A stretch of DNA of 64,000 nucleotides, from positions 16,419,756 through 16,483,755 of the forward strand of contig CM044961.1 in assembly GCA_024516035.1 (NCBI GenBank), read 5' to 3'. Of the stretch, positions 28,386-63,531 are shown piece after piece (positions within the stretch are counted from its first letter, which is position 1; every line of letters begins with the position of its first letter). The translations under genes and the position numbers were made by a program. This DNA is from Bactericera cockerelli. Lineage: Eukaryota > Arthropoda > Insecta > Hemiptera > Triozidae. The notes beneath the pieces were generated by a model. It saw only the letters and a list, made by a program, of their open reading frames with translations. It had not been told where the DNA came from and searched no databases.

Positions 28386-28656
28386 TTTTTTTTTTTTTTT
28401 TTTTTTTAAGTGGGGTTTAACGTCGCTTTCAACTGCCATGGTCATATCACGACGGGGGTTTTACCCTCCATTCGCAGGAAACTCACAAACCTGCTACTCA
28501 CATTGACCTCACCCAGCCTGAGTGGGGCCGGGAAAAGCCAGCGTCACGAGAATTAGAATTTGAATGGTCACCCATCCAAGTCTTAACCTCGCTGGATGTC
28601 GCTTAACTTCGGTGTTCTGAAGGGAACCGGTGTATTCAACATGCCATCGACGCTGG
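28386..28656 (-). mobile_element. 5S-rRNA-derived SINE (family D), young copy
   Basis: Reverse orientation, T run at 28387-28407. The 5' part matches 5S rRNA (GTTGAATACACCGGTTC, ACCGAAGTTAAGC, GACTTGGATGGGTGACC). Flanked by TAAATCGATTTT on both sides, a target-site duplication. Almost identical to 30864-31139 and 60592-60858. Further decayed relatives: 28720-28950, 32008-32130, 44296-44462, 49402-49625, 58867-59047, 62659-62916. Confidence 0.9.
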
Positions 28657-29142
28657 CTAAATCGATTTTAAATGAGTAAATGAGAGTGCTGACTCGAACT
28701 TGTGTTTGAAGTTGAATGGACAGTTGATCACACATTCAAGTCTTGACTTAACTTTCCGAACGTTGCTTAACTTAGTGAAACTCACAAATTCACTGCCCAC
28801 ATTAACCCCACCAAGCTTGGGTGGGCCCGGAAACAGCCACATCATGAGGGCTCGAAGTTGAATGGTCAGTACGTCACTCATTGAAGTCCTAACCTCGCAG
28901 GACGTTGCTTAACTTCAGTGACAGAACGAGAACTGGTGTACTCAACGTAGGCTTTATTGTTTTGTCTCATTTTAATGTTTCATAATGAAAAAATACACTG
29001 ATTTGTTGTATCATACTTTGGGTTTTAACACTTTTATCACCAAGAAAAGTCCATGATTCCGCGGGGTTGATCAAAATCCGTTTGATCAAAGTATCAAAGT
29101 ATCTCACTTTTCTGTTTAATCTCACTTTTCTGTTTAAACTGA

Positions 29143-30863: not shown

Positions 30864-31110
30864 GCCAGCGTCGATGGCATGTTGAATACACCGGTTCCCT
30901 TCAGAACACCGAAGTTAAGCGACATCCAGCGAGGTTAAGACTTGGATGGGTGACCATTCAAATTCTAATTCTCGTGACGCTGGCTTTTCCCGGCCCCACT
31001 CAGGCTGGGTGAGGTCAATGTGAGTAGCAGGTTTGTGAGTTTCCTGCGAATGGAGGGTAAAACCCCCGTCGTGATATGACCATGGCAGTTGAAAGCGACG
31101 TTAAACCCCA

Positions 31111-44500: not shown

Positions 44501-47500
44501 ATTCACAGAATACCTACCCTACCTAGCTTCTTTTCTAGCGTCTCAACCACACCTTCGACCCCATTGCTTGGTCTACCAAGTTGCTTAATAGACTTTTCAC
44601 ACTCATATTTCGGCTTAGTAGAACTCTCCCAAATGAAAAATGGAAGAGAATGCCGAAGGCATTATCACCACCCTTGATCAGGCTTTGTTTATATTTATTT
44701 CACAACTTGTTACCATGTTCATTGTATATATAAAAAAAAAAATGTAAATAAAGCTTGGTCCAATTGTTTATAAAAATAAATAAAATTATAAAACAAATAA
44801 TATTTCTTTCTACAGGCGCTGTTAGAAACCAGCAACATCACCCTGAACGCCAAATACATCAAGCTGGCGGCGGGTTCAGAGCCGGTGCGTGTGACCCGCA
44901 TTAACACTAGCAGGCCTAGGGGTCCTGAAAAGATACCGGTCCACAGCACTACTTTCGACGAGGCCAATGAGCAGCTGGTCATCGTTCTGGACAAGGCGTT
45001 GTCACGCCAGGAGCACTATCTGGTGGAGATAGACTACGCGGGCACACTGGGGGACGACATGACGGGGTTTTATCTGAGTCGCTACACGAACGCGGGGAAA
45101 GAAAAGTGAGTTTTTTTTTTAAAAAAAAAAAGGTAAGTGTGCCCCGGAACCGCTTTCGCATTACTTCAGGGCACTTACCTTTACATCCATGCCATTCCGG
45201 AAACGGAAAATTTCGGTTAGAAATTTCCGCTCCGGCCGGGATTCGAACCCGCAACCTCCGGGTCAGTAACCAATGTGTTACTTGTTTGATTAATTTCACG
45301 TGTGCTATGAACTTACTTCACGTGAACTTACTTTGCGAGAGCAAGGACTCTGGAAGTTCGTGTTGTTGTGGAAAGAGCAAGCAGGCAATGAACATGCTGA
45401 AAACGTTTTGTGCTATCTGGAAACCCAGATTTGAACCCCAACCTTTTGGTTGACAGTCCACCACGCTCACAGAACTGTGTACTGTGGAGATTGTTTCACA
45501 CGAAGGTTTTTCCACTTTTTCCAGGCTCCTAGCGACCACCCAGTTTGAGGCCACCGGAGCGCGCAGAGCCTTTCCCTGTTTTGACGAGCCCCTCTACAAG
45601 ACTCCCTTCACCATCAAAGTCACACGAGACAAAGTTCAGAAGTCCATCTCCAACTTACCGCTGAAAACTACCGTACCCGTGGCAAAGTAAGTCAGTATCC
45701 TTTATTTGAATAAGAAATTCTTGCACTCAGTAAGGTTAGTTAACACGTAATATACAATTAGGTGGTTAACACGTAATATACAAATAGGTGGTTAACACAT
45801 AATATACAAATAGGTGGTTAACACATAATATACAAATAGGTGGTTGAGTTGGTCGAGTGGTGAAAGCGCTAATCTGTGGTAATCCAAGAAGCTTGGGGAT
45901 CCGTCCTTTTGGATCTCACCAAATGACCAAATACTGCATAAATCCTCATTTATTTTAAAATGTACTAGCACCTATTTTTTTATTGGCTCTATCGAAAGAG
46001 TTCATCGTAAGGATTTTTTTTCCGAGCCCAGAACTTTTTAATTTTTACGTCAGACAGTAATTTTTTTAAATTTTATTCAGACGCTTGTCACTTGTTCCCG
46101 CACATCCCGCCCTCAGAACCGTTTAGTACCGTAAGGTCTTGGGAGCTTTTTGTAATTTTCATGGCGGAATTGTCTTTTTCTGGTGTATTTTACTTCCGAG
46201 AAATTTCTAATATTAGAAATCGGAAGTATTGTGTTCGTTTAAAAAAAAAAAAATATTTTTTTGCTCCGATTTCAATTTTTTTCATATTTCTGGACGTTTC
46301 ATAACCTCCTGAGCAAATTTGGTTTTGTGTCCGTCTGTCGGTCTGTTAAAACGATTCCTTGTAACGCGCAAATCTCGGAAACTACTCGACTGATTTTGAT
46401 GAAATTTTGCTCACATCTAGGAGACAATGGAGACATTCTGTAGATGGTCCCATTTTAAATTCATTGAATTCGTACTAGCGGTTCTTGGTGAAAAAGACCA
46501 TGCGCCTGACCACTAACTTTTTACTTAAACGCGTATATCTCGTGAACGGTACACCCGATTTTAATGAAATTTTGTATGGTTATGCATATTACTATTTTAC
46601 ATAGGCCTTTTATATTTATTTTTTAGTTAATTATAATTTGACTCTGATATTTAAGAAAATCCGAAATTTTGGACAAAAAAGTCAAAAAATAAGAACCCTA
46701 CTTGCCGATACAGAATTTTTTGTAAAATCTAGAATGTAGAAAAAACAATATTCTACCATATAAAACAAACTTGAAGAAAATCGGTTCAGTCGTTTTGGAG
46801 ATACAAGTAAATTTGTATAAAATCTCAAAATTGGCACGTGTTTACAATGTGAAACAATCACGAGGAAGTATTGTGTCCAGAATTGGCAGTGTTTCTTTCA
46901 GATTCAGTCACTTGTTAAATGAAAAGATACTTATCTAATACAAACTCATTATTACTGAATCGAACCTTCTCATCCATTTTTTTCTTTCTTTCTTTTTTCT
47001 TTTGACTCTTCCAATTTTCTTTTTCCTTTTTTAATGATCCTTCACCCTTCTTCTCCATAATTTTCAGCTCCACCAAAGAGACCGACACATTCAAGGAGTC
47101 CCCAAGAATGCCTACCTATTTGGTCGCTTTCGCCGTCTTCGAGTTCGATTCCATCAGCAACCAGAACCAGACATTCCGGGTTTGGGGTCGCGAAGACGTC
47201 ATAAAGAAACAGGTAAAATGAATCTCATTGACTTTTGTTGAGATTACATGGTAACGCATTGACTTTTGTTAAGATTACTTGGTAACTCATTGACTTTTGT
47301 TGAGATTACTTGGTAACTTACATGATGTGCTAAGAGTGTAAAGAGTTTTTCAAAACGTCTCCGGTTCTTATGTCGCAAAATTTCACCCTGGTCCCACGGT
47401 TCTTTCAAAATGGCAACACTAAGAATAATTTTTTTAAACCAAAATATAAAACATGTTTATATTTCAAATATATCCCAAAATCAAGTCCCTCAAGACGGGC

Positions 47501-50500
47501 TATAGTATGCGCTGTAATTTGTTTTTTTTTTTTCTCGGTTTAACGGGGCTTTAACAAGGCGATAAGCCTGTCGTTCACGGCGGATGTAATTTGTTGAAAC
47601 TCCAACTAATGCTCGGTTCTACGAATCTTGAAAAACACGAAACCGGGGATTGAGAACGTTTGAAACTAAGAGCCCGTTCACACCGACTAAAAACAGTTTT
47701 TTTACTGGGACAGTAATTTTACTGGTCCAGTATTTTTACTGAGTGGCGCATACATTTAAATGAGAGCGTTCACATCGGCAACGTTTTACTGTTAACAGTA
47801 AAAAAACTGGATCGACAGATTTTTACATCAGATTTTGCCACTAGAAACGGAAACAGTAGAAAAACTGGCCCAGTAAAAAAAACTGTTTCTACATCCAGTC
47901 GCTTGTACAATCAAATGGAGATGTTCACACTGCAGTCGGCACAGTTTTTATTGTTTCTGAAACCTATTATAATATCGTATTTTTCGAATGAAAATTAATT
48001 CGTGTCTATTTGTGAGGCGCTAGAATGGAAATCGGGGCGAGCAAATGACTTTTTGGTGGCGATCTGGTTCAAACTAGGTTCTATAGATAGGTATGACTTG
48101 CTGCTATCTAGGGTTAGTGTTAGGGCCTTTCGTCACCTACTAGGGCCGAATTAGGGCCAAATAAGGGCCTTTTTGGAAAATCATAAATTCGGCTCTAGCG
48201 CCTCACTTAATTATTAAATTAAATTTAGAAATGCTCCTTTTTGATACCTTTGTGCACTATGGGATGATTCCACCATCTTCTCTTATTCCTTCGTTGTCGT
48301 TGCCGGTACCAGTACAAAAGCATTAATGTATTCACATCCATCACGTTCAAAGGCTTTATCACGAATGAACATAAAGAAAAGCATGGAAAAGTAGGACCAG
48401 TAAAAATACTGTTTGTAGCCTGTGTGAACGCACTCTGAGAAACAGTTTTTTTACTGGACACAGTAAAAAAACTGTTCCAGTAAAAACTGTTTTGGTGTGA
48501 ACGGGCTCTAACGTTCCCAATCCCCGGTTTCGTGTTTTTCAAGATTCGTAGAACCGAGCATTAACGGAGTATCTGGTTTATCTTAAATTTGGTCCTATGT
48601 TATAATTCGGACCTTAGTAGAGAGTACAGGAGAGGGTTGTATCGAAAAAAATAGACATGATACGAGCATATATTTTGTATTAGATATATAAAAAAAAATA
48701 GACATACGAGTACTATACTCAGTACTCGTAATATTCACAGGGCCAGTACATTTTCGAGAAGGGCCAGAAGATCCTATCGGCCCTCAGCGACTACATGGGG
48801 ATCAACTACTACTCTGTGATGCCCAAGATGGACCTTGTTGCCGTGCCTGATTTTGACGCAGGGGCCATGGAGAATTGGGGGATGAATACGTACAGGTAAA
48901 AATCCTTTTATTCAACACTTTGTTCCAGTAAAATTATAAATAAAAAAAATGTATTTCTTGCAGCAGTAAAATGTCCATGTAATTCCTGTATTGGTATAGT
49001 AAGGTAGATACATAATTTTATAATAATACGTAGGTACTTACACTTACATTATCCTAACCTAATCTTAAATTTACCTTAGTATTGTAGGTATATGGGTATA
49101 GGTACACATGGGTATAGGTACTTACCTACATATTGCACACTGCATGTTGCATACCTACATAGTCTGACCTCAGTAGATTTATCAATAAGGCAGGTGACTT
49201 GTATCCTGGAGGGTGGTAGTTCGAATCCCCAGTTTATCAAATATTTAGTAAAGCGAATATGAGTATTTTACTGTAGGTATGACTGTATTGCAAAGGCACT
49301 CTTGAGTATTTCTTGTATGAGGGCGGACTAACAGCTAATAGTAAGTAATTAATTTATTGATAGACAATATTGTCCTAATTTAGAACAAAGTAAGGTCTTT
49401 TCTCAGCCAACGTCGATGGAACGTTAAATGCACCAGTTCTCGTAAGATCACCATAGTTAATCAACGTCGAGTGAGGTGAAGACTTCGTGATGCTGGCATT
49501 CCGACCCAACCCAGGCTGGATGAGGTTAATGTGGCTAGCAGGTTTGTGAGTTTCCTGCAAATGGAGGGTAACACCACCGTCGTTTTATAACCATGCAGTT
49601 GAAAGTGACTTTAAACCCAAAATCAAAGAAAGGTCTGTTCTAGTAAAATGATTGAAAATTGGAAATCATACTTGAGATATTCTGAATATGGAATAATATT
49701 CTGTTCATTAAATACGGCTGTAAGACTCTCAAATAGATCATATTATAGGTAGTTATTTAGTGTTCTAGCGAGGTGCAATTAGTAAAATTAGTTTAATTAT
49801 TTGTATAAATGTGGTCATTTAGAGTAGGTTTCTACTGACTTAGATTAGTCCGGACTAGTGCAAGCAATATTTCAAACTTCTATTTAGAACAAGAAGATTA
49901 AAGTAGCCCGTCACTTCTATTAGTCCAATTGTTCCGTTCGATAGTTGAGACGAACCAAATCCGTTCTAGTCCACTGATGTTACACAGACCTCTGTCGATC
50001 AATCTGGTCGCGAACTGAAAAATGGCTGAAACTTTAGGCTTTGGGGACTTCAAAACGTGCTTTGGCATAGAAAACTAACTATCGAATTTTTTGGATGATT
50101 AGGTAATTACTTTCCTTTCTTATCCTAATAGGTACTTATACTTACATAGGTAGTACAATTGTTCTCAGAGATTATCTCGCATCTAACTGTTCAACCTTTC
50201 AGTAGGAATTATTTAATTAACCGTTAGTTCAATCATAATTTTATTATGATTATCCATGAGACAGCGTTTAAACTGATTGAGTGTAACCTTACGGTCTAAT
50301 CATGAGAGGGAAACTTTTTAACATCAAATTGATTAGATTCGTATTACGTTCTATGCCTCAAAATGTTTCCCGCTGATTTATCTAATTGTTTTGAAGTGTA
50401 ACTTTCCAATGAGATACACAAGAAAGATCGACCGAATATTATTACTATGATTTTTTCATCTAATTAGGTACGTATTCATTAAAATGTCGGCTTCTTGTAT

Positions 50501-53500
50501 CAAGTCAATTTTTTGTGATTTTTAAAATTATTTTTACAAAAGTAAGTACCTAGGTATGTAGCTAAATTTTATCTCACAAACTTATTAAGACTCAAAACAA
50601 ATTTATTTACAATAATAAATAAATAATATACTGGTATACAGACACTACAAACAGGGTGTCTCAAAAAGTCCCTGATGGACACACGAAGAGATGAGAAATG
50701 ATTCCTGAGACCATTTCACGAAATTCTTGGAATAGACTTGTGTATTAGAGGTACCACAGCATTACCGCAACTTGTCAATTATTTAAAATGAAATGAAAAA
50801 CCACCATTATCTCGTAGATAATATTAACTTGTAGATATAGAAATGTAGGTAAGCAGTGTAGCAGTTATAAATCTATTACATAAGAGATTTTAATAACCAC
50901 AGCTAAAAGCAACTGTGGAACACCTAGGTACTACCACAGAAGTTATTACATTTACATAAGTAATCTAGATAAGGAATTAAGGATCAGACAATTTTTGTAA
51001 ACACTTAGGTAATGTGTAGGTAGATGTAATTACTTAATTATAGTAATCGCTCTTCTAAAATTACTCAGAGTAAGTATATTAATAATTGTTATTGGGTAAA
51101 TGGAATAAGTAGGTATATTACTGAAAATCTATTTAGAATTTTCTTAATATTCTGGATAGAACGCAATAATACGAAGATATTTTAAAAAATAATGTTTTGT
51201 TAAATAAATGTTCCTGTTACGTATCAAATTCACAGGCTATTTTTTAGAGTCTGAATTCTTATGTACCTACCTTATGATAGGTACGTGAATTTTTTCCTTT
51301 ACATCATTTTTTTTTTTTTAATTGGTGCCCGTTTTCTTATATTTTCACCCACAGCTACACTATGGTTTAATATTTCACGTGCTTTTGTCTTTCTTTCCTC
51401 GACCTCATCCATCTTCCCTTAGTGAGAACATCATCTTCCTCCCAGAAGAGACTCCCACCAGGGTGCTGTACACAGGTCTTGGCTTGGTCAGCCACGTCTT
51501 CAGCCATGCCTGGTTTGGCTCGATAGCCACTGCAAGTCACTGGGGCTATGCCTGGCTCAATGAGGCCTTTGGGCGATACTATGAATATTTTGGTCTTGAT
51601 TTGGTAAAGAGAATTTCCCTATGTTTTTCTTGATTTTTGTGTTCTTTTGATAGTTTCATTTATTTCAATTTCGTGTCTTTTTAATTTGCTTCTTTTTACT
51701 TACTACCTATTACCTATTCAATGTTTGCCATGGTATTTTAGTTTGCCATTGCACGTTGTTTTCATGTTGGCACATTCGTATGAATAGAGTAGTTTTTATG
51801 TAGACACTTAAATATTAAATTTTAATTTGTTCTTGTTTATTAGTCATTTTATTTTGAATAACTCTCTGATAGCTTCTGAATGTTCCTGTAAGCTTCTGTG
51901 AATGTGCCTGAAGATTATTTCAAGTAATAAGTATGTAACTAGGTAGTATCTAACATTATCTACTTGTATTTTCAGCATGTTGTCATCTTTTGAGTTGTCT
52001 AAGCATGGTTGTAGCTTCTCAATAGAGATTTAGTTTATTTGTTTCAGTTGTAACTGTTTTTCTACTATTAATTAATTTTAGCTCTTCGTGTATCGATTTA
52101 TCTTTTATATGAATTCGCATGTGTGGTTTTACGAACTTTATTATTTTTCGATATATCACGTTCCAAAGGTCTCATAGCTACAATAAAAACAAGTATAGGT
52201 GCACCAAAGAAGAAGTATGTAATAGGTACTACACAACCAATGAAATACAAGAAAATACAGGTAAGGATTCTCTCATTTAATGGAACGATAACTCATATGG
52301 CATCATTATTCAACTGCGGGTATTTACTTGTAATTATACTTAATTACTTATCCCTGTCTGTTTTATTTAATCCAGATTATTGCTCTCTCAGGTAACTCTT
52401 GTTTTGTATTCTCTGTTCTTCTGTGTTATTTTATCTTCTAACAACTGAAATGTATACTTCTTCATCTCTATCTTCGTTTCTCCTTCTCTTTATTTTTTAT
52501 TAATCTTACCTTAATTATATTTCCGACATGTTTTCCGCATCTTTCTCTAACATCTCTCGTCACCGGTTTCCATCTCATCAGGGAGAGGTTCCTGCTCCTC
52601 TCGTCCTCTCTCTCCAGCACGTACGCCTTCCTGCGTGCCACGAGCGTGGTCACGCATGAGTTCACGCACCAGTGGTTTGGCGATCTAGTCACGCCTGCGC
52701 ACTGGGACTTCACCTGGCTGAACGAAGCTTTCGCGCGCAATTTCGAATATTTCGGAACCGCGCTGGTAAGAACGATTTCTGCCTCATGGATGAACCTGTT
52801 GGTCTGTTTGAACAATTATACAGTGGAATTGGTGGAAGCTGCTATGATGTGCTAAGCGAGTTGGCTTATTGAAAAAAAAGGAGACTATCAACCATGTTTT
52901 TACTAGGAAATAATTGAAGTCTTTCATAAGCATCAAAGAATGATTCTTGAAGTTATACTAAAGCACGTGCTTTAGTATAACTTCAAGAATTATACTATTT
53001 TGCTTATGAATATGTCTGATAGGGTGATGTGGGACGCTTTATGTCCAGTCCTAAGTGCTTTTGTGATTGCCCGTGACTTGTTGTCTTGTTGGGGAATCTT
53101 CCTCATGGCGAACTCAAGCTGAAAGTTTTGAACATATTTAAACTACTTGTAAAAAATATTTATACCTAATTTTTTATTACAAATCTTTTGTTTTTCAGCA
53201 AACAAGACAGTAATAGCCACTTTGTTGCAATTATGAAATATTATTATGTTCTTAGTTTGGATATTTGTCTTGCTCTACTTCTATTCCTAAATCACCTTAT
53301 TTACCCCCTCGTTTTTCCGATTTCTTCCCTGACCTTGAACAACTCAAGTGACATCATCATCAGCAAGACTTAACTCGAAGTAATAATCTGAAGGAGTGGT
53401 TCTTATGTTGGAAGGCCGACTTGATACGTTAGGAAATAAGAAATTGCTACCATTCAGACAGGAGTATGAAAACTTGATAAAGAAATTTGAAATTTACATT

Positions 53501-56500
53501 ATTGAATAGCACAGAGTTGCAGACTTTGTGTGAATTTTTCACTTTATCCTTGTCTTTCAATGTTTGAATCGAATGTTGTGCAACAATACTTTTTTTGACA
53601 CATTGTCCTCTAAGGTATAAATTATTTCCAGTAGGTATGGATCAAGGAATAGGTACTTCCACCAAATCAATTTATCCGGAGGTGGTACCTAAATAATTCA
53701 GGTTTCAGAGTGGTTTGTCTGCAGAGTTAGTCATATGAAGAAGTGGTATGGATAGGAATATCGTGTCAAACATTGCCGCATTTGGGACGTTATATCTTGG
53801 ACTGTTTGGACAACAAACTATTGTGTAATATACACTGAGCATCAAAATTAGAGGAACGCTAAAATGATCTTGAATATTTTCGAGGCGGATTTACTTAGGA
53901 ACCTAGTTTCTTTTCAGGTTAACTAGAAATATAAATGCTAACAAGGAACAAGACAAAAAATTCATAAACATAACAAGAGAGGATTCATTTATTGGTACAT
54001 TTAGAGCAATCTCAAAAAAACTGCCTAAAATGAAGATTAAAAAAATGCTTAATTTAGGAAATATTCAATTTTTCTTACATTTTTGCTACTTAAATGACTG
54101 TATTGCCCCCCGCAGCATTATGTAGGGCCGTTAATCTCCTTGGCATACTTCGGACAAGCTTATCAATTAAGCTTGGCTCATCCGGTCCCATTTTTCGACC
54201 ACGGCCCTTTTGAGCTCCGCCAGAGTATTCGGTTGGTTTGTTCTTGCTCGAATCATTTTCTTTAGATAGTCCCATACACGCTCAATGAGATTCATGTCTG
54301 GTGAGCGAGGTGGATGCTCCAGAACTTCTAATCCAGCCTCCTCAAGGAAACGGGATACTAAAGCTGCCGTATGTGGTCGAGCGTTGTCATGCGTGAGGGT
54401 GAAGCCATCTCCAATGAATGACATGAACGGGAGCACAAAATCTTGCAAAATCTCCGACACGTATCGTTGAGAGGTCAGGGCGCCCTCTCTATGATATACA
54501 GCGTGTTACGGCCTCCTAGAGTAATGCCCCCCATACCATGATTGAGCCGCCACCATGTTGCTCCGTTCCTACCATGTTACACTGCGCGTACCTCTCATTA
54601 GGCTTTCTCAGGGCTCTGACCCTCTTGTCATCAGACTTAAGAGCCAACCTACACTCATCTGTAAACAATACTTTGCTCCACTGACGGACTGACCACCTTC
54701 TGTAGTTCTGGACATATGCGCGCCTCTTCACTTTGTGCTGAAAACTGAGAAGTGGGGTCCGCTTGGCTCGGTGACACCTTATAGTGTGCTTGTGGAGTCT
54801 TATTGACACAGTAGCAGTGGAAACCCTAACACCCCGGGTGCGTTGGACCTCCGCACGCACCCTTGTTGTGCCTTGGAACCGATTTCTCAGAGCCGTGAGG
54901 ACCATGAAGCGGTCGTCGCGTGCTCTTCTGGAGCGTTTTCGACCTTACCCGCGTCTTCTTTTCTACTGACCAGTCTCCCTGTAACGTTTCACCACACGAA
55001 GAACCACGGATTTTGAGACACCGAGAGAATTTCCCACTCTGGCACAACTCCAGCCCGCGCCAGTCAATGCCACTGCTCTTGACACTTCCACTCCTCTAAG
55101 ATCATTCATTGTTAATGAAAAACGATAATTAAACTTCTTAACAACTCAATAAAATAGAGAAACGTAATCACATTGACCCCAGGTAACGGAATTATGGATT
55201 TTCAATAAATGACCCCAACACATGAAGTTCCTTAAAAGTGTACATTTTCGAGGTACCTATAGTAAACTATTGTTTACTATCTACGAGCTTGATAATTGTG
55301 TATCTTTCTCCTCATTAGCGATAGTCAATCATATTTGTCAAAATTATTGATCAAGAAGAGGTTCCCAAAAGGAAGACAGTCCTTAAAATTAGAGATCATT
55401 TTAGCGTTCCTCTAATTTTGACGCTCAGTGTATGTATCATATCAGTGTTTCTCACCAGCATCAGGGTTAGGTGGTAGAAAATGCTTTCAGCATTAACCTT
55501 GTAGTTAACTTCCATTTATTATCCATCTGATTTCGGAATATAATCTGGTTTATGTGTATTGTGGTTTTTATAATACATTCTGTATTACAGTGTACATTAT
55601 ATCTGCTGGTGGGTGCCTCTTTGCGATCACTTTCCAACTTGAACAGGTCGATGCGTCTAATGAATTGCATGAGAACAAGTAGGTACAATGGTACATACAT
55701 ATTTACTTGTCCATTTTGATTTACCTTACTATGACAATTTAGTCCATTGACTGTAATGAGAGTCATTATTACTGTAATGAGTACTCTGAGCAACTTTACT
55801 TCCGTTGAGACTTGTCGTCTTGTATCTATAATATTTCTGTACCTATGTATGTATATCTCGGTGAGAATCTTTGCGAATAGTATTCTGTTGTTATGAAACC
55901 AGCTCATGTGCGGTATTTCCTCAAGCACGATGATTAGAAGTGTACCATTATTGCAATCATGAGAACTGTGGATTTTCTGTGGTCTACAAAAAATCGTACC
56001 TATTAAATAGTTGTCTTGGACACTTTTTATAAGATAAAATAATATATTATCTGTAGTATCCATCTTAGGTATATTGTTTTAATGGTAAGAATTATATTAT
56101 TATTACCAATAAATAGTACCTATCAAACATTTGAATACAGTGTATTACCTACTACATGTAACCCGTTGAAGTAATACAAAAGAACTGCGTGCGTAGGCCG
56201 CAATTAGGCCCATTATGAATTCAACAAACAAATAATATTCACAATGATTTTTGTATGTTTTTTTTATTGAGAAAGGTCTACTTTTTCTTATATGTATATT
56301 TAAATATTCTTTCTTTCTTTTAGTATTTCTTTCCCTTGTTTTTTCCTTTTTTCAGTCCTTCTTCCTTGCCCCTTCATTTTATATCATTAAAGTTTTACAC
56401 TCAAATATCCATGTATTTATGTTCAAGCAAAAAACCTGAACCAGTGAAGAAACATTGAAGTCATTCTCTAACCAAGCACTTCTAGACTCCTAATTTTCCA

Positions 56501-59500
56501 AGAGTCCATCTTTTTCTTTTAGAGAAATCTGTATCTTTGCGGACCCCACCAGGAGCAAAACCGCCCGCCTAGAAGATGTTGTGTCGACCGTCACTCATGA
56601 GTTTAGTCACCAGTGGTTTGGTGATCTGGTCACTCCCTCCACATGGGACACTGTCTGGCTTAACGAAGCTTTCGCTACGTATTTCGAATACATGGTTACA
56701 GCTGTGGTAAGATGGAGGCTAATACGTATACCGTACCTTGATACTGAGGGAGACATACCTAATATTTGTTTAAGCACAAGTAACTAATTATGTCAGTATA
56801 TCTATTGTGATTTGAAGGCGCTTCAATTAGGATTGTAATCCTGTCCCTTTCTTTTATCGGGTGCTGTTAGAAGTCCGTTTTTGATAACACTAAAATATTG
56901 TTTTATTTATAATATTATCAACTGCTTTAACTATAATAATTATTGTTGCCAGAGTGGGTCTTTCTGATAACACTAAAATACTTTAAAAAATATAGGTATA
57001 AAGTCTAACAGAGGATAATTTTAACTTTAATTAACATGCCAGGGTGGGTCTTAGCCTTATTCTTATCTTGTGATGGTCCTATTTTTTATTCAATTGACTT
57101 TATCTACCTCTTGTGTTAGGTACCTTTTTTAGCACTTAGGGGAGAAATCAACACTTTACTTCGATCAAACACATAAATATGCTAACTTGGGTTAGTTCAT
57201 TTGAAATATTTTATAGATGTCTATAATCCAGTCTTTCAATAAATCTCTTGTCTATATTAGATCAGGGAGTTTTGAATCTCTGTCGCTACCATATTTTGAT
57301 GTTTCATTCATGTTCAGTTTAGTTTTCTCGTTGAATCTTTCCATCTTGTTTTCTTGGTCCTCTCTTTTCTCCTCTAAGGTTAGATTCAGATACATTCATT
57401 CGGTACTACTAGTAGAAACCTCTACCTAATTATTTTTATTCAAAAAGAATGCCTGTTTGTTATGGTTTCCTAAGTCATTATTCTGCTTGATTTTATTCTT
57501 TCAGCAAACAGGACTGTGAAGATGCATATCTTTGAACTTTTCTTGAACCCCAAAATATATCGAGGTTCTTTCTTTGGATATGGTAGATTTATATTCAATC
57601 ATTAGATTTCAATTTCTAATCATTAAGAGTTTCTAAAAGACGTCTAATTAAACCTAACAAGGAGTATGGCACTGCAACAATTTACTCAGGATAACACAAC
57701 TGACATTCCTTTCTTTCGTACCTGTACGAACATTTGTCTAGACCGCGCTAATTTTCCGGCTGATTTTCCTATTTCTAGAGAAATCTGCATTCTTTCGGAC
57801 CCCACCAGAACCAAGTTTAACCTGATTGAGCGACAGGTTGCCCTAGTAACACACGAGTTGAGCCACCAGTGGTTTGGCGATCTTGTTACTCCGGCCAAGT
57901 GGGATTTTCTCTGGCTCAACGAGGCTTTTGCAACTTATTTCCAGTTCTTCAGCACTGCTGTGGTAAGAAACAAGGACAGCATGGTCGAAGTCATTGTAAA
58001 AGATGATGTATAAATATTTACTAAATACTCTACAACAAATGGACACTTGTCTTTTTTCCTCGATGAGTCGTATTTAGTATTAGTGGTGGTAAAATAATTT
58101 GTGTCAGTCTCCTTATACAATTAGGATTTCAATTCTCATTATAATATAATTTTGGAATCATAATATGTATGTTTAGTATACGTATACTCCTACATGGCAA
58201 TACATAATGTAGAAGTCATTCCAGAGATGTGTGCCTGTGTCCTGTAAGGTCGTAGTTGTCTTTTGTTCTCATTCCCCCAGCTATTTTTTTCAGTGCATTA
58301 TATCCACTCTTTTCTTCTTTTCTTTCTTAAGCGTCAAAATCTTACTATTGGATTATGATGAAGCCTTTGATCCACATCTTTCAGCGTCATTTTCAAAAAT
58401 TGCTCCCAATATTCTACCGAAAAGATGGGTAACTTCTATTTCAGCTTGAAAATACCATCCTACGCCTTCTGTTCTATTATTATAGATATGTATAAAGTTG
58501 TACAAACTAAGTTATTAAAATATTTTTTGAGCTTTAGGTACCTACAATAATTCAGATTGATGAATAAATTTATCCGGAAAAAACTACGGCGCTTCATTTT
58601 ATTTTCTAACTTTCCAGGTATATAAAGAAAACTGCATGTGTTTACGCCAAATGAATATTACTGTCTACGAGCAAGTATTGTGATGTCTGTCCAAAGTCAT
58701 TCAAATTAATCATTGAATAAAAACTTATATATTTTGTTTACCAATGTTTTGTCCCTATTTTTCAAGATTGCTGGAGGTGCTTCTGTTTTTTGTCCTCACA
58801 GTAAAGTATGTCTAAAGTTTCTTAGTTTTACTGTGTACTGTATAGGTACCTATGTCGTTTTTGCTGGAATCTCACAAACCAGCTTCTCAAATTAAGCTCA
58901 TCCAGCCTAAGTTCGGTCGATAAATAGCCAGCAACACGAGTATTCAAATTTGAAGAATCACCCATCCAAATCTTAACCTCGCTGGACGTTACTTAACTTC
59001 AGTGACAGAACGAGAACTGGTGTATTCAAGGTACCATCGATGCAGTCGATACTGAGCTCTCGTGAAAAATATTCCTGTTTCAAACTATTCCTGTTTTCAA
59101 CTGTCTTGTACCTTTGTTTGTTTTTCTTTTTTTTAGCTCCCAAAATTAAATAAAAATTGTTTCACCCTTCTATTTTTATTTTAGTCCCTCCTTTCTATTT
59201 TTTCAGTTTTTCTCACGACAAAACTTTTCTCTTCCTTCTTCTTCTAATGTTTCGGTTTTCCTATTTCTTCTCCCAGTGTCCCATTTCACTCCCCTTAATC
59301 CTTGAATCCTTCTCCCACAGTGTCCCACTTCACTCCCCTCAATCCTTGAATCCTTCTCCCACAGTGTTCCACCTCACTCCCCTCAATCCTTGAATCCTTC
59401 TCCCACAGTGTTCCACCTCACTCCCGTCAATCCTTCAATCTTTCTCCCACAGTGTTCCACCTCACTCCCTCAATCCTTCTCCCACAGTGTTCCACCTCAC

Positions 59501-62500
59501 TCCCGTCAATCCTTCTCCCACAGTGTTCCACCTCACTCCCCTCAATCCTTCTCCCACAGTGTCCATTTCACTCTTCTCAATTCCGTCAGTCCTTCTCCCA
59601 CAGTGTCCCACTTCACTCATCCGTCAGTCCTTCTCCCACAGTGTTCCACCTCAATCCCGTCAATCCTTCAATCTTTCTCCCACAGTGTTCCACCTCACTC
59701 CCTCAATCCTTCTCCCACAGTGTTCCACCTCACTCCCGTCAATCCTTCTCCCACAGTGTTCCACCTCACTCCCGTCAATCCTTCTCCCACAGTGTTCCAC
59801 CTCACTCCCCTCAATCCTTCTCCCACAGTGTTCCACTTCACTCCCCTCAATCTTTCAATCCTTCTCCCACAGTGTTCCACCTCACTCCCCTCAATCCTTC
59901 TCCCACAGTGTTCCACCTCACTCCCCACAATCCTTTAATCCTTCTCCCCCAGTGTTCCACCTCACTCCCGTCAGTGTGTGCGTTCTCGTTCCTATCCTGT
60001 GTGTCCGCTTTCTTCCAGCGAAGGCTTCTTCTTTAAGGACGCCTTCACCACCGAGTGGCAGAGCAGGAGCATCTTCAGCCTCGCAACCCATGAGCTCTCC
60101 CACCAGTGGTTGGCAACCTCGTCACGCCCTCCTGGTGGTGCTACGCCTGGCTCAAAGAGTCGGTGGCGGATTATTTTGAGTATTTTGGCGTTTCGTTGGT
60201 AAGAAAGTAAGGGACCCCTTCGTTTCTTTCCTTCACATTTTCTGGATCATGCTTTTTTCTAATCAGCATTCCACCTCCTCGGTGAGGAGGTTTCACTCGG
60301 AGAATGAGGCGGCGGCACACGGAAATATTGGACATCTAACGGACGAATTATGAAACAGGATGAAATTTAAGATAAGACTGTCCGTCAAGCCAGGCTTACA
60401 CCCGTATTTATGAACAGCGAATTCTATCTGAGCACTGTTTCAAGCAAGGTATTGGCCAATAATATTAAAGGAAATCATGCTCCAGACCATGCTCAAACGG
60501 AGTTTTCTGTTCATAAATACGGCTGTTAGTGTGCCATGATTACACCAATAAATGAGACTTTGTTTAGACTGTGAGAATAAAGGGACTCTTTAGCCAGCGT
60601 CGATGGCATGTTGAATACACCGGTTCCCTTCAGAACACCGAAGTTAAGCGACATCCAGCGAGGTTAAGACTTGGATGGGTGACCATTCAAATTCTAATTC
60701 TCGTGACGCTGGCTTTTCCCGGCCCCACTCAGGCTGGGTGAGGTCAATGTGAGTAGCAGGTTTGTGAGTTTCCTGCGAATGGAGGGTGTTTTACTTGGAT
60801 GGGTCGTGATATGACCATGGCAGTTGAAAGCGACGTTAAACCCCACTTAAAAAAAAAAGGGACTCTTTAGTCTCATTCTTGCAGAATAAACAGAGTATTG
60901 TACTGTACCTACGATTATTGTATGATTGCTTGATCTCTCCGACTCGAGGGAGGGTTTAGCTTATCTAAAATTTAATCATGTTTCAATGTTCGGCCCTAAC
61001 ACTTTGGCTCTGCCTGAGATTGCACTGTAGATTAAGGACGAAATTATGTAGATACATTATATTCTAAGTTTCCAAGTATGTACCTATTTATTTCATGCAA
61101 GATACTTTTCAGCACTACATAAAAGGTAAGTTTAGGTACCTTTCTATGTTAAGAGGTACGTCAGTTTGAAATTGAAATTTTAAAAGCACGTTATAAAGCT
61201 GAAGTTTTTTGTTTGTTCTATCTGCATGTCTTCGTATTATTTTGCACATTTATTATTATTTTGCACATTTTTTGGGCTATCTAACCTATTTGAGCTAATC
61301 TGTGCTGGCGATTTTGTAATTAGTTTTACTTTGATTGTGTAATTTTTAAGAGCTATAAGCGGGTGTGTAATTTTGTAACAAATTGTCGTGGAGTTCCTAA
61401 TGTTTGCATGGAATTTAATTTATTTTGCCAAATCCTAAAAACCTGAATAGGTACCTACTACTTACCTATGTTATATTTTTTTATTTCGACAGGAAGACTT
61501 ATAACTCCAAATTACCTGCTCGAAAAAGATGAGAGATGTTCAGAGCTTCTTTTATATTTATAACATTTTATTAGTCCACGCCAGAAATCGATGCTATATT
61601 AATCAGTGACCAAGATATGGGAAATTCATAACATGTTTGGCGTTGCGTAACAGTTTACGGTTTTCGTAGTTCTGACCAGGAACCGACCTCAGTAGCTTGA
61701 TCGATAAAGCAGCGGTCTTGTAATCCGGAGGTCGGTGGTTCAAGTCCCGCTTTCAGCGTGGATTTAGTAAAGCGAGTTTGAGTATTTGTGATATTACGAA
61801 AGTGATTAACACAAATATGATAATAATTATGTATTTCTTTTACTAATGGTAATAATTTAATACATTACCACTAATATACTATACTAGATACGAAGTACCT
61901 CCTATTTGGGCATATGAACTAAATGTAAGTAATAAAATGTATATGCCGTACCTATATAAAATTATTAGCATTTAAAGTTAAAAATACAATCGGACCTAGA
62001 TACAAAAGAAAAATTTCCAAATCAAATTTACCTCTCTAGGCAGGGAAAATAACCTCTTTATAAAAGAAACCTGGATACAAGAGAAAAACTCTCCGATCTC
62101 TTGAGTTATTTAATACTTCTGTTACGTCCATGAGGTCCGACTGTTTTCTCAACAACAACACAAAAAAAAACCCCCGGACTATCAAAAGTAACACTTCTAC
62201 CCCTTCGCTTCTAGGTTGAGCCCACCTGGCGGATGGAAGATCTGTTCGTGGTGGAGCAAGTGCAGGTGGCATTCCAGAGAGATGAGCTGAAGGACTCCCA
62301 CGCCATGACTTCCAAGACCACCACCCCCCAGTCTATCGCTGACACATTTGACCACATCATTTACAACAAGGGTATGCCACATGGAAGAACTAACTCAATC
62401 AGTATCAGTATATCAGTATCAGTATAAACAGAAAAGTGAGAACGAACACACGTTAGCCTAGGAGTCGAAATTTTTCGATTTTCAAATTGTCGATACCTAG

Positions 62501-63531
62501 CAGGTGAATTAAAGAACATTATTTATTAAATCCTGTCACTTTTTCAAACAGTCAAAAAATTGTATGGAAATTAACTTCTAACAATGCGAGGTACCTGCAA
62601 AAAAATCTCTTTTGCAAACTATGTCTAACCACTTGTACATTTGTACAAATATACATGCTATATTTTGGGGTTTAACGTTTTTTTGAACTGCTTCACGTCA
62701 CATCAGGACGAGAGTTTTACCCTCTATTTGCTGAAAATTTGCCAATCAGCTAACTACATTGACCTCGCCCATCCTGGGTCGGGCCGGGAATAGCCAGCAT
62801 CACGAGGGTTCGAATTTAAATGGTCACACATCTAAGTCCTAGCAACATTGCTGGATGTTGCTTAAATTCAGTGACACAATGAGTACTGGTATTCAACGTA
62901 GCATCGACGCTGGCATTACCAGTCTACATACTTCAGTCGATTCTTTTGTCGTTGTATCACTGTATCAGTCCCTCTTTACCTTGTAAAATTTGTGGTTAAA
63001 TGGTCTGTCCCGGTAGCTCAGTGGTAAAGGCGGCACTCTGTGAATTCAGAGGTTCCAGAGGTCGCGGGTTCGAAACCCAGCCGGGACATGACAAGTTATC
63101 CTCCCATATGGGATTTTTACCTCATAATAATACGTCTTGGGCTTGCTGTTGGAATAATGGGACTTAATAGTCCTAATCGGGTAGTATAATTAAGGCGATA
63201 TTATTATTCATTTCATCACAGTACTTTGCGTAGTATGTGTGCTGTACTCAGCACTACAGCTTTCTGCATCAGGAGAAGATTGTGTGTTCCAGGGACTTCT
63301 TTCATGGCTTCACAGGTAATGTTTGATATGAGCCTTGTAGCTCCGATTATTATTATGTTTTATTTCTCATTATTATTATTATTTACGATTGGTTAAGTCA
63401 AATTTTATGTCTTCAATTTCTCCCTGTTAAGGTGGTTCTGTATTGCGGATGATAGAGCACGCGGTAACACCGGAGATATTCAAGCAGAGTCTGAGACTTT
63501 ATCTGAAGGAAGGATCCTCGGATAAGCTGAA
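35525..63531 (+). CDS. M1 aminopeptidase N, secreted or membrane form (5' part; alternative catalytic exons)
   Basis: Constant exons: 35525-35764, 44816-45105, 45525-45686, 47068-47212, 48741-48895, then one of five alternative exons (51423, 52582, 56523, 57779, 60019), then 62215-62371 and 63432-63531; the gene continues past the window. All phases agree. With one 184-nt exon the visible part is about 477 residues of the 900 to 1000 usual for the family. M1 peptidases remove N-terminal residues from peptides with one zinc ion; insect APNs are typically GPI-anchored midgut ectoenzymes. Visible features are a signal peptide ([20 protein letters not shown], cleavage near residue 20), [32 protein letters not shown] (about 180-198), [14 protein letters not shown], the substrate-binding motif GAMEN (about 320-324), the HExxH-18-E zinc site supplied by the alternative exon (about 355-379), [11 protein letters not shown] and NKGGSVLRM. 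Intron 1 is 9 kb. The membrane anchor is not in the window, so anchoring is inferred. Confidence 0.95.
35798..35935 (-). mobile_element. SINE-like repeat family E
   Basis: CCCCGGAACCGCTTTC to GATTCGAACCCGCAAC. Read on the minus strand, the right end is a tRNA-like B-box. A second copy is at 45132-45280. Both sit directly after exons 1 and 2 of the aminopeptidase. Confidence 0.75.
35948..36241 (+). repeat. Minisatellite, 32 to 35-bp unit, about nine copies
   Basis: Units of GATGATTAGAACCGTGAAGG plus TAGGTACTAGG(G)CT. In 33-bp units it is open on both strands (for instance [11 protein letters not shown] repeated), which creates false frames. In aminopeptidase intron 1. Confidence 0.92.
36243..36415. 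mobile_element. Short MITE family M4
   Basis: Second copy of the 32163-32337 foldback; the arms pair for most of the length (CTCTCATAATACC / GGTATTATGAGAG). Confidence 0.78.
37072..37344 (-). mobile_element. SINE family A copy
   Basis: Reverse copy in aminopeptidase intron 1; tRNA-like head at about 37270-37340. Confidence 0.85.
38170..38390 (+). mobile_element. SINE family B, diverged copy
   Basis: Starts ATCCCGGCAGCTCATTGGTC; B-box GGTTTGAAAGCC; same body and end as the other family B copies, with many substitutions, so older. Confidence 0.78.
39416..39555. mobile_element. Short MITE family M2
   Basis: GGCCGAATTATAAAACAGG and CCTGTTTCATAATGTGGCCC ends. In aminopeptidase intron 1; another copy is at 44049-44210. 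Confidence 0.72.
40040..40215 (+). mobile_element. SINE family C body fragment
   Basis: Central domain (ACCCAGACTGGGTG, GGTACGATTCCCAGCGAATGG) without a tRNA head. Confidence 0.65.
40776..42070 (-). mobile_element. mariner transposon, about 1.3 kb
   Basis: TA at 40774 and 42071 flank inverted ends sharing GATCAA-AAGTACCCGTGTTT. It encodes a broken mariner transposase on the minus strand. Inserted in aminopeptidase intron 1. Confidence 0.9.
40840..41900 (-). pseudogene. mariner transposase, frameshifted
   Basis: N-terminal helix-turn-helix part [20 protein letters not shown] at 41900; frame changes near 41680 and 41515; then a 230-codon C-terminal part. Catalytic residues are all visible: [22 protein letters not shown] and [13 protein letters not shown], with 34 residues between the second and third Asp (DD34D). 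The breaks mean that this copy is inactive, but they are few, so it is fairly young. Confidence 0.9.
42397..42702 (+). mobile_element. SINE family A copy
   Basis: Copy with a shortened head and the usual body, near the mariner element. Confidence 0.82.
43372..43492. mobile_element. Short MITE family M3
   Basis: GGAATTAATAGACGTTTTTG ... GTCTATTAATTTCGCC; about 120 bp. Confidence 0.75.
44049..44210. mobile_element. Short MITE family M2
   Basis: GGCCGACCAATAAAACAAGA start and AATTCTGTTTTATAAGCTC end, inverted; diverged copy. Confidence 0.65.
44296..44462 (-). mobile_element. 5S-SINE family D, decayed copy
   Basis: Reverse copy keeping ACTAGACGTTGCTTAACTTC and the ATCGACGCTAG end. Confidence 0.65.
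45132..45280 (-). mobile_element. SINE-like repeat family E
   Basis: Close to 35798-35935; the B-box-like end GGGATTCGAACCCGCAACC is at 45237. It begins within 30 bp after the donor of aminopeptidase exon 2. Confidence 0.75.
45739..45845 (+). repeat. Tandem repeat, 26-bp unit, four copies
   Basis: Units GGTTAACACRTAATATACAA plus ATAGGT. Directly followed by a tRNA-like segment (GGTTGAGTTGGTCGAGTGGT) that is probably a decayed SINE head. Confidence 0.9.
46190..46640 (+). repeat. Dispersed repeat, partner of 34428-34870
   Basis: Contains AACCTCCTGAGCAAATTTGG, CGCGCAAATCTCGGAAACTA and TATATCTCGTGAACGGTACA; inverted partner at 34428-34870. Aminopeptidase intron 3. Confidence 0.75.
47606..48563. 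mobile_element. Foldback element with about 95-bp inverted ends
   Basis: Ends AATGCTCGGTTCTACGAATC / GATTCGTAGAACCGAGCATT, continuing with ACACGAAACCGGGGATT and GAGCCCGTTCACACC. Inside, CAGTAAAAAAACTG-like palindromic pieces recur. No transposase recognised. Lies between aminopeptidase exons 4 and 5. Confidence 0.85.
48741..48895 (+). CDS. Aminopeptidase constant exon 5 with GAMEN motif
   Basis: Starts after ATTCACAG, ends TACAG/GTAAAA, 155 nt. It opens with GQYIFEKGQ and contains [23 protein letters not shown] is the exopeptidase motif that binds the free N-terminus of the substrate. The exon ends in phase 2, with AG of an Arg or Ser codon, and is the constant donor for whichever alternative zinc-site exon is chosen. 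Confidence 0.95.
49165..49330 (+). mobile_element. tRNA-headed SINE family G copy
   Basis: CTGACCTCAGTAGATTTATC and GTTCGAATCCCC, then AAAGCGAATATGAGTATTT. A better copy is at 61683-61850 (GTGGTTCAAGTCCCGC). Confidence 0.7.
49402..49625 (+). mobile_element. 5S-SINE family D, decayed copy
   Basis: AGCCAACGTCGATGGAACGTT start, 5S-like middle, GGTTTGTGAGTTTCCTGC body. In the first intron of the alternative-exon cluster. Confidence 0.75.
49626..51422. other. AT-rich intron before alternative exon A
   Basis: No further exon of the cluster is visible: no TGGTTTGG-like zinc-site block and no GAMEN duplicate. A short end of MITE M1 lies near 49700. If docking sequences for splice choice exist, this intron, directly after the constant donor, is a likely place, but none was identified. 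Confidence 0.45.
51423..51603 (+). CDS. Alternative exon A of the aminopeptidase: zinc ligands kept, catalytic Glu lost
   Basis: 181 nt between CTTCCCTTAG and the donor GTAAAG; enters phase 2, leaves phase 0, 60 whole codons. It reads [13 protein letters not shown], then [30 protein letters not shown]. Aligned with its sisters, the HExxH motif is HVFSH: both zinc histidines are present, as is the third ligand Glu 18 residues later (WLNEAF), but the catalytic general base Glu is Val, and the usual [10 protein letters not shown] is [10 protein letters not shown]. The open frame and intact splice sites argue against simple decay. A catalytically inactive isoform is inferred. Confidence 0.88.
52582..52765 (+). 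CDS. Alternative exon B of the aminopeptidase: HEFTH zinc site
   Basis: 184 nt after CTCATCAG, donor GTAAGA; phases 2 to 0, 61 whole codons. It begins [12 protein letters not shown] and carries [20 protein letters not shown] and [13 protein letters not shown]. All zinc ligands and the catalytic Glu are present, so this version should be active. Its first third differs strongly from exons C and D, in the part leading up to the active-site helix. Confidence 0.92.
52943..52990. repeat. 48-bp perfect palindrome after alternative exon B
   Basis: Arms of 24 bases (ATTCTTGAAGTTATACTAAA then GCAC) meet with no spacer at 52966/52967. Outer arms TTCATAAGCA (52922) and TGCTTATGAA (53003) extend the pairing, with an unpaired part, over about 90 bases. 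Confidence 0.92.
53833..55430 (-). mobile_element. Tc1-type transposon, 1.6 kb
   Basis: TA duplications at 53831 and 55431; inverted ends begin CACTGAGC[A/G]TCAAAATTAG and match over 38 bp with one difference. Sits between alternative exons B and C of the aminopeptidase. Confidence 0.93.
54090..55109 (-). pseudogene. Tc1 transposase, interrupted
   Basis: Begins [17 protein letters not shown] at 55109, an in-frame TAG follows YRETGQ near 54975, and frames change again near 54500 and 54170. Catalytic signs: [23 protein letters not shown] and [17 protein letters not shown], with 34 residues between the second Asp and the Glu (DD34E). The C-terminus reads [12 protein letters not shown] and ends NAAGGNTVI. 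Confidence 0.9.
56523..56706 (+). CDS. Alternative exon C of the aminopeptidase: HEFSH zinc site
   Basis: 184 nt after TTTCTTTTAG, donor GTAAGA; phases 2 to 0, 61 whole codons. It begins [12 protein letters not shown], then [30 protein letters not shown]. Zinc ligands and the catalytic Glu are intact. It shares its opening with exon D (EICI-DPTR-K), so C and D look like the most recent duplication in the set. Confidence 0.92.
57779..57962 (+). CDS. Alternative exon D of the aminopeptidase: HELSH zinc site
   Basis: 184 nt after ATTTCTAG, donor GTAAGA; phases 2 to 0, 61 whole codons. It begins [12 protein letters not shown], then [31 protein letters not shown]. Zinc ligands and the catalytic Glu are intact. 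The segment between the zinc site and the C-terminal end of the exon matches exon C closely. Confidence 0.92.
58867..59047 (-). mobile_element. 5S-SINE family D, decayed copy
   Basis: Reverse copy, with AACCTCGCTGGACGTTACTT and GAACTGGTGTATTCAAGG from the 5S part kept. Confidence 0.75.
59270..59975 (+). repeat. Minisatellite of splice-acceptor-like units before alternative exon E
   Basis: About 18 units of 35 to 44 bp: TCAATCCTTCTCCCACAG then TGTTCCACCTCACTCCCC. Each unit is a pyrimidine tract ending in CAG. The array ends 44 bp before exon E. Long open frames in all three forward frames come from the repeat and are not genes. Confidence 0.95.
60019..60198 (+). pseudogene. Alternative exon E of the aminopeptidase, frameshifted copy
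   Basis: 180 nt after TTTCTTCCAG, donor GTAAGA. It begins [14 protein letters not shown] and has [11 protein letters not shown], after which one T is missing from what is TTTGG in the other copies (about 60109). Before the deletion the frame matches exons A-D; after it the homology ([19 protein letters not shown]) continues in the next frame. As read it would shift the downstream exon and reach a stop there. Either a dead copy or a sequencing or assembly error in a T run; splice sites are intact. Confidence 0.8.
60401..60527. mobile_element. Short MITE family M1
   Basis: Third copy, close to 9030-9155. Just after alternative exon E. Confidence 0.82.
60592..60858 (+). mobile_element. 5S-rRNA-derived SINE (family D), young copy
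   Basis: Nearly identical to 30864-31139 for most of its length, with one altered stretch near 60788 (TTTTACTTGGATGGGT in place of AAAACCCCC). Flanked by AAGGGACTCTTTA on both sides. In the last intron of the alternative cluster. Confidence 0.92.
61683..61850 (+). mobile_element. tRNA-headed SINE family G copy
   Basis: GACCTCAGTAGCTTGATCGA, GTGGTTCAAGTCCCGC and AAAGCGAGTTTGAGTATTT. The remaining intron to 62214 has nothing recognisable. Confidence 0.72.
62215..62371 (+). CDS. Aminopeptidase constant exon after the alternative cluster
   Basis: Starts after GCTTCTAG with [17 protein letters not shown] and ends in phase 1 (NKG) at GTATGC. It matches the M1 segment following the zinc-site exon (human APN AEPTWNLKDLM). 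It is the single acceptor that each alternative exon must join; it reads in frame only if a 181- or 184-nt exon is included once. Followed by exon 63432-63531 ([23 protein letters not shown]). Confidence 0.93.
62659..62916 (-). mobile_element. 5S-SINE family D, decayed copy
   Basis: Reverse copy in the intron after the VEPTW exon; body and part of the 5S head recognisable. Confidence 0.72.
63007..63213 (+). mobile_element. SINE family B, full copy
   Basis: Closest relative of 29834-30046, with intact tRNA-like head and GATATTATTATT end. In the intron before exon 63432. Confidence 0.88.

Follow-up and report, generated by a model that had tools for sequence, protein, structure and literature searches.

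One M1 aminopeptidase gene of the psyllid Bactericera cockerelli carries five tandem, diverged versions of its active-site exon, of which just one probably enters each mRNA. An mRNA with exon B, C or D would give an active enzyme and an mRNA with exon A a form that is likely catalytically dead. The gene was analysed in a window of 64,000 nucleotides of contig CM044961.1. It is a single gene of the APN type, otherwise single-copy, and we identified the following constant exons in the window:

35525..35764, + strand: exon 1, with the start codon and a hydrophobic, signal-peptide-like N-terminus (tblastn with the psyllid proteins P0001 and P0121)
44816..45105, + strand: constant exon 2, M1 N-terminal domain (tblastn, Pfam)
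45525..45686, + strand: constant exon 3, with FPCFDEP (tblastn)
47068..47212, + strand: constant exon 4, with MPTYL (tblastn)
48741..48895, + strand: constant exon 5, with GAMEN; two bases of a split codon are left over (tblastn)
62215..62371, + strand: constant exon with VEPTW, after the array (tblastn, frame joins)
63432..63530, + strand: following constant exon, with GGSVLRM (sequence, frame joins)

The donor of exon 1 (gtaggt) was picked by eye via comparison with P0001. The array itself consists of five exons:

51423..51603, + strand: exon A, 181 nt, HVFSH-18-E; Val replaces the catalytic Glu and the zinc ligands are retained
52582..52765, + strand: exon B, 184 nt, intact HEFTH-18-E
56523..56706, + strand: exon C, 184 nt, intact HEFSH-18-E
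57779..57962, + strand: exon D, 184 nt, intact HELSH-18-E; nearest to C (67 % protein identity)
60019..60198, + strand: exon E, 180 nt, with HELSH and intact splice sites; a net loss of one base just after HQW shifts the frame

Using tblastn with 11 of 120 listed M1 proteins (E < 0.1), we found each constant exon once and the HExxH exon alone five times, which agrees with the sequence-only reading that the flanking exons are not repeated. The lone extra row was a weak, stop-containing stretch at 51099-51299 (E 0.022). The full-length protein P0121, used as a twelfth query, gave the same picture, with the exception of Pro-rich low-complexity rows near 21.6-21.9 kb. Past the window the gene runs for about 8.7 kb further, and the exons there match residues 476-978 of P0121. 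These downstream exons encode a Thr/Pro-rich C-terminus with a hydrophobic end, as judged by eye. The gene product with exon D inserted scored 142 bits for PF17900 and 168 bits for PF01433 in Pfam, and PF11838, the ERAP1-like C-terminal part, was found at positions 597-905 when the relative P0121 was searched. The array exon aligns with the part of the structure that contributes the catalytic Glu and all three zinc ligands, including both His. GAMEN and the zinc site align between the psyllid gene and the solved APN-type M1 structures (pig 6buy, human 4fyq and Anopheles 4wz9), and to our knowledge none of these proteins takes the segment equivalent to the array from alternative exons.

The coordinates first proposed for the five homologous exons proved exact, and each exon has an AG acceptor and a GT donor. 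Two further claims of the sequence-only reading stood in part. HExxH-18-E, said to occur in every exon, is intact only in B, C and D, but not in A or in the frame-broken E; an exit phase of 0 throughout was confirmed for A-D but not for E. Taken alone, exons A, B, C and D scored 38.3, 63.1, 74.4 and 69.7 bits for Peptidase_M1 in Pfam, whereas the first piece of E stayed under the cut-off (15.1 vs 27.7 bits). Protein identity among A-E is 35-67 %. Either exon E was broken recently, or its frame shift is an assembly error.

The frame break in E would also fit with an array that is the product of a misassembly or collapse of several tandem aminopeptidase genes, as would the recent near-identical exon copies at some other M1 loci of the same genome. 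We consider such an artefact highly improbable. At the DNA level, C and D cease to resemble each other 6 bases beyond either exon boundary, and exon E gave a single hit when its DNA was searched against the 565 Mb assembly; moreover, the constant exons are single and like versions exist in other psyllids. Tandem genes as such were ruled out by the single constant exons and by the continuation of the gene downstream. The original interpretation as exon duplications is instead supported by the single constant exons, by the conservation of the versions in psyllids and by two Cyamophila gene models that share one gene name.

A search of related species and an exon tree, both suggested at the outset, recovered A-like, B-like and C-like exons in other psyllids and supported the corresponding clades. 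In C. melanoneura P0121 (1010 aa), which is the sole full-length psyllid relative among the matches listed, GAMEN, a C-like exon and VEPTW are all joined. The Cyamophila (C. willieti) models P0001 and P0234 are those that bear one gene name, and their contigs agree in length; they are identical at 88 of 88 shared residues and differ in the exon version, and one of the two holds an A-like exon. Of two separate D. citri models, P0237 has an A-like exon and P0233 joins a B-like exon to VEPTW. These four gene models each show just one of the two joins: P0001, P0234 and P0237 stop a few residues beyond the exon, in the following intron, and P0233 starts within the preceding one. The exon of P0001 is equally close to B, C and D (56 % each), thus not all versions are matched across species. 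When the C. willieti A-like exon was searched in the B. cockerelli genome, the best hit was exon A of the window (68 %, E 2.5e-21), with exon B as the runner-up (1.1e-12). Support in the exon tree, which was built on 61 columns and has 8 of 21 inner branches open and E on a long branch, was 100/100 for the A clade, 97/87 for C and 82/81 for B. A single clade of the window's five exons was rejected (p-AU 1.5e-7), as expected if the versions are older than the species. Judging from these comparisons, the versions are old.

Purifying selection on A-D is strong. Their differences are in excess at third codon positions, and across the six pairs pS is 0.68-0.87 (near or at saturation) and pN 0.20-0.44. 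This third-position pattern, the protein identities and the presence of orthologues in other psyllids together exclude chance. Another explanation would be that C is the single working exon and that the others are relics of old duplications, skipped or seldom used. The loss of the catalytic Glu in A and of the frame in E points in this direction, and so does the C-like exon in the one full-length psyllid relative among the matches listed. However, A-D have retained open frames, ordinary splice signals and the signature of strong purifying selection, and other psyllids keep A-like and B-like exons at 65-74 % identity, a level inside the 55-88 % that the constant exons show between the same sequences. 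Relics would be expected to lose these features, and we therefore regard this explanation as unlikely.

The reading frame suggests how the array may be used. Each of A, B, C and D continues the frame from the GAMEN exon into the VEPTW exon, and both skipping of the array and all six pairs among A-D break the frame and lead to stops. We infer that A-D are mutually exclusive exons, one per mRNA, because of this frame relationship and because a single version is present in each of the four partial models and in the one full-length protein. The point at which three of these models stop could also be read differently: some versions, A foremost, may be alternative last exons, with intronic polyadenylation giving a short protein that ends just past the active-site segment. 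P0001, P0234 and P0237 all end in this way, and exon A of the window stays open for 9 codons further to a stop, with AATAAA or ATTAAA located 210 and 578 bases downstream. Nevertheless, endings in introns are typical of gene finders missing a join, good donors are found on all of A-D in a common phase that fits 62215, and like hexamers are also present within 1 kb after C, D and E (not B), so they are not telling. We consider alternative last exons slightly less probable than relics.

Returning to mutually exclusive use, A-D all joined would amount to 733 nt and by arithmetic be back in frame, so frame-based removal alone cannot explain the exclusion. The same limit of frame-based removal for mutually exclusive exons is stated in the accessible part of PMC6071210. 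U2/U12 incompatibility was ruled out, as the sites of A-E all resemble ordinary GT-AG sites by eye, and steric exclusion via short introns was ruled out because the introns that separate the five versions are 978 to 3757 nt long. We compared the 300 nt upstream and the 300 nt downstream of each exon with most of the two outer introns in the window sequence and obtained no convincing signal of docking/selector pairing. Six of the eight measures were matched by 7-15 of 20 shuffles each. The remaining two were matched by 2 of 20 (docking 60720) and 0 of 20 shuffles (docking 60580), and these docking sites lie within or at the edge of a repeated stretch at 60592-60856.

Regarding exon A, the motif HVFSH means that the catalytic Glu is gone and that the zinc ligands remain; the His, His and Glu kept by this version are the zinc binders in the M1 family. 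The Glu is absent from all three A-like exons observed (window, C. willieti and D. citri). Among 347 gathered M1 proteins bearing the motif only three lack the Glu, two of them being the psyllid A-like ones. The A form is thus likely a catalytically dead, non-cutting protein, a subunit that may serve in binding, as a decoy or as a partner.

No diverged exon versions were found at 14 other M1 places in the same genome, each viewed over a part-gene stretch (five covered with one query and nine with 11 queries; two at C3:25.5 Mb were left out). A second copy of the HExxH exon is present at C11 and at both C12 places, identical across the shared protein stretch, and these duplications are therefore recent. 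A putative second case, a 156-bp array over the GAMEN exon of another M1 gene, was dropped as its units have no visible acceptor of their own.

Clusters of alternative exons are known best in adhesion, motor and signalling proteins. Enzymes with an alternative exon pair include PKM, ketohexokinase, CYP4F3 and JNK, in which exon choice alters enzyme properties, as it would in the psyllid gene, with two versions there versus five here. We know of no such pair that swaps in a conserved dead zinc-site version. In insects, tandem clusters of mutually exclusive exons are described for Dscam, Mhc, 14-3-3zeta and MRP1 in the accessible part of PMC6071210. The psyllid array resembles them in its tandem homologous exons of similar length (180-184 nt) and one phase (E excepted) between constant exons, and in the frame break caused by paired inclusion, here for pairs of A-D. 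It differs from them in that the exchanged segment forms a peptidase's catalytic core, that one conserved version is without the catalytic residue, that no convincing docking/selector pairing was seen and that exclusive use is predicted. Insect APN genes with multiple mRNA forms, predicted in the psyllid, are also found in moths: in Helicoverpa, isoforms of HaAPN1 and HaAPN3 arise when exons are skipped, which is linked to circular RNAs and short co-directional repeats, according to the accessible text of PMC6722899. Its main text makes no mention of exon duplication, tandem, HEXXH, GAMEN or active site. We found no comparable M1 exon array in the literature searched, which included the accessible parts of PMC9013439, PMC3303723, PMC12203342 and PMC13003732.

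In the proposed mechanism, mutual exclusion would be aided by the decay of mRNAs whose frame is shifted by mis-splicing, and a further selecting mechanism beside this decay would pick the exon. B, C and D may differ in substrate preference. The idea that one locus yields peptidases of differing specificity, put forward in the sequence-only reading, fits these three versions but not A, which is predicted to be dead, or E, which is unreadable in the assembly. The hydrophobic N-terminus and the Thr/Pro-rich tail with a hydrophobic end, noted by eye, may point to GPI anchoring at the gut surface. Going further, the array may be a splice switch on one surface aminopeptidase, with three active versions differing in their substrate pockets and an A version of ancient origin, maintained by selection, that acts as a zinc-binding pseudo-peptidase (receptor, decoy or silent dimer partner); we believe this about as much as we doubt it. 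If transcripts confirm the predicted exon use, both the specificity and the on/off state of an enzyme would be set by splicing at one locus. Two questions are thereby made testable: how the choice of exon shapes the pocket of a protease, and why a pseudo-enzyme isoform is retained by selection.

The five homologous exons A to E lie exactly where the sequence-only reading had placed them (51423-51603, 52582-52765, 56523-56706, 57779-57962 and 60019-60198), and AG acceptors and GT donors are present. Tblastn searches of both strands of the window (queries: 11 M1 proteins out of 120 listed; E below 0.1) recovered the constant exons one time each, at 35525, 44816, 45525, 47068, 48741, 62215 and 63432, and the HExxH exon alone in five copies, apart from one weak stop-containing stretch. 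This supports the earlier view that we are dealing with exon duplications rather than tandem genes. In the B. cockerelli genome searched, where 1032 contigs make up 565 Mb and the window occupies C7:16419756-16483755, the gene extends about 8.7 kb beyond the window, and the exons there match the rest of the full-length C. melanoneura protein P0121. The encoded protein contains M1 N-terminal and M1 catalytic domains and its closest relatives, among the best 120 of 1565 and the best 120 of 7979 matches, are the psyllid proteins P0121 (63 %, with the alignment covering 99 % of the query) and P0001 from C. willieti. In the alignment with the pig APN chain, the array exon corresponds to the part of the chain where the catalytic Glu (Glu384), the two His residues (His383 and His387) and the third ligand (Glu406) are located.

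Exons A (181 nt), B, C and D (184 nt each) are all 1 modulo 3 in length and E measures 180 nt, so the common exit phase proposed earlier holds for A to D and fails for E. Any one of A, B, C or D placed between the GAMEN exon (48741-48895) and the VEPTW exon (62215-62371) gives an open read-through. Skipping shifts the frame into stops, and so does double inclusion in all six pairs among A-D. The anatomy, phase and conservation of the array are directly observed, and they suggest that each mRNA carries a single version. Skip and double forms, being frame-shifted, would be sent to decay. A+B+C+D joined together measure 733 nt and restore the frame, so a further factor beyond frame-based decay would have to assist. 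Frame-based exclusion has this limit, as stated in PMC6071210.

The following elements were found in the window:

28536-28657, minus strand, 5S rRNA match (65 bits)
30864-30985, plus strand, 5S rRNA match (65 bits)
54167-55145, minus strand, Tc1/mariner transposase-like pieces, open frames between exons B and C, judged by eye
59305-59973, minisatellite, units of 36-44 bp, C/T-rich as read on the given strand, ending 45 bp before exon E
60593-60714, plus strand, 5S rRNA match (65 bits)

The three equally scoring 5S rRNA matches are probably 5S-derived SINE elements; DNA resembling the one at 60593-60714 is also present at 49405-49631 and, reversed, at 58860-59043. Competing RNA pairings are the usual insect solution for choosing one version, and a crude scan of the array (8 measures, 20 shuffles each) found no convincing one. 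Six of the 8 measures were equalled in 7-15 of 20 shuffles. The other two, docking at 60720 and at 60580, were reached by 2/20 and 0/20 shuffles, counts uncorrected for the eight measures, and both places lie in or at the edge of a repeated stretch (60592-60856) with the 5S-like element.

A check in related species with an exon tree, proposed earlier, found A-, B- and C-like exons in other psyllids, grouped by version. The C. willieti models P0234 and P0001 carry one name (WDU94_007455) and are identical in 88/88 residues up to the array; there P0234 continues into an A-like exon, 68 % identical to exon A of the window, and P0001 into a different version that is equally close to B, C and D (56 % in each case). 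When the A-like exon of C. willieti was searched against the B. cockerelli genome, exon A of the window matched it best. The D. citri model P0237 has an A-like exon (65 %), and the separate D. citri model P0233, which begins inside the intron before the exon, has a B-like one (74 %) followed by VEPTW. P0121, presumably transcriptome-derived and listed without a contig, has a C-like exon (69 %) with GAMEN before and VEPTW after. The constant exons show 55-88 % identity in the same comparisons. Tree support was 100/100 for the A-like clade of three species, 97/87 for C and 82/81 for B; the deep branches are weak because the alignment has only 61 columns. There is a small probability that some versions serve as last exons, a reading suggested by P0001, P0234 and P0237, which stop inside the intron following the exon.

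When A-D are compared two by two (six pairs), pS reaches 0.68-0.87, at or close to saturation, and pN is 0.20-0.44. DNA likeness between C and D stops 6 bases beyond the exon on either side, so the trace of duplication has been erased from the flanking introns. The HExxH-18-E site, claimed for every exon, is intact in three of the five, as A has Val for the catalytic Glu and E is frame-broken. Exon E reads THELSHQW, then [25 protein letters not shown] in another frame, with a net loss of one base. In the longer piece of E, differences from B, C and D amount to 5-7/29 at codon position 2, 11-13/29 at position 1 and 15-20/29 at position 3. With position 2 least changed, exon E seems to be either a version that was coding until recently or one carrying an assembly error in its frame. 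Assembly collapse, named earlier as a possible refutation, is disfavoured, as exon E gave one match only in a DNA search of the genome.

In the literature searched, mostly titles and abstract starts, with most subscription journals and all of bioRxiv outside it, we found no M1 aminopeptidase with mutually exclusive active-site exons. By title, none of the psyllid aminopeptidase N papers among the matches listed dealt with alternative active-site exons, and none was on point for mutually exclusive exons giving a catalytically inactive active site. No paper was matched that links APN to both exon duplication and alternative splicing, or an aminopeptidase of Diaphorina citri to alternative exons. 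The nearest case found, judging from the abstract of PMC6722899, is that of moth APNs, whose forms arise by exon skipping, whereas the B. cockerelli gene has tandem exon versions. Exon-cluster criteria were taken from PMC5740500.

Repeats were also seen at other M1 loci of the genome. A different M1 gene, at L033 (C7:35122000), L035 (C7:35378000) and L037-L038 (C173), holds an array of ~156-bp units overlying the 3' part of the GAMEN exon and the donor site; some are degenerate, and no acceptor of their own was seen in the units read in L033. A second HExxH exon copy, identical over the shared protein stretch, occurs at L041 (C11:2766000) and at L043 and L045 (C12), and a later exon of an M1 locus is repeated at L047-L048 (C4). 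These extra copies on C11, C12 and C4 are recent duplications. A separate dead-looking M1 gene, with HNLAHHWLG for HExxH and NISAVENWG for GAMEN, occupies the near-identical loci L039 (C7:22908000) and L040 (C7:23274000).

Exon A translates as [13 protein letters not shown]...WLNEAF and keeps the zinc-holding His, His and Glu. Its HVFSH is shared by P0237 and P0234, so the catalytic Glu is missing in all three A-like exons seen. Among the 351 M1 proteins gathered, which are matches to this gene and not a random M1 sample, it is missing in only 3 of the 347 with the motif. Two of these 3 are P0237 and P0234, and the third is P0171, an APN-like protein of Daktulosphaira vitifoliae with HKLAH for HExxH, apparently another hemipteran loss of this residue. 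Loss of the catalytic Glu should end peptidase activity in the M1 family, while zinc binding may stay, and for this reason the form with exon A would have a binding, decoy or partner role.
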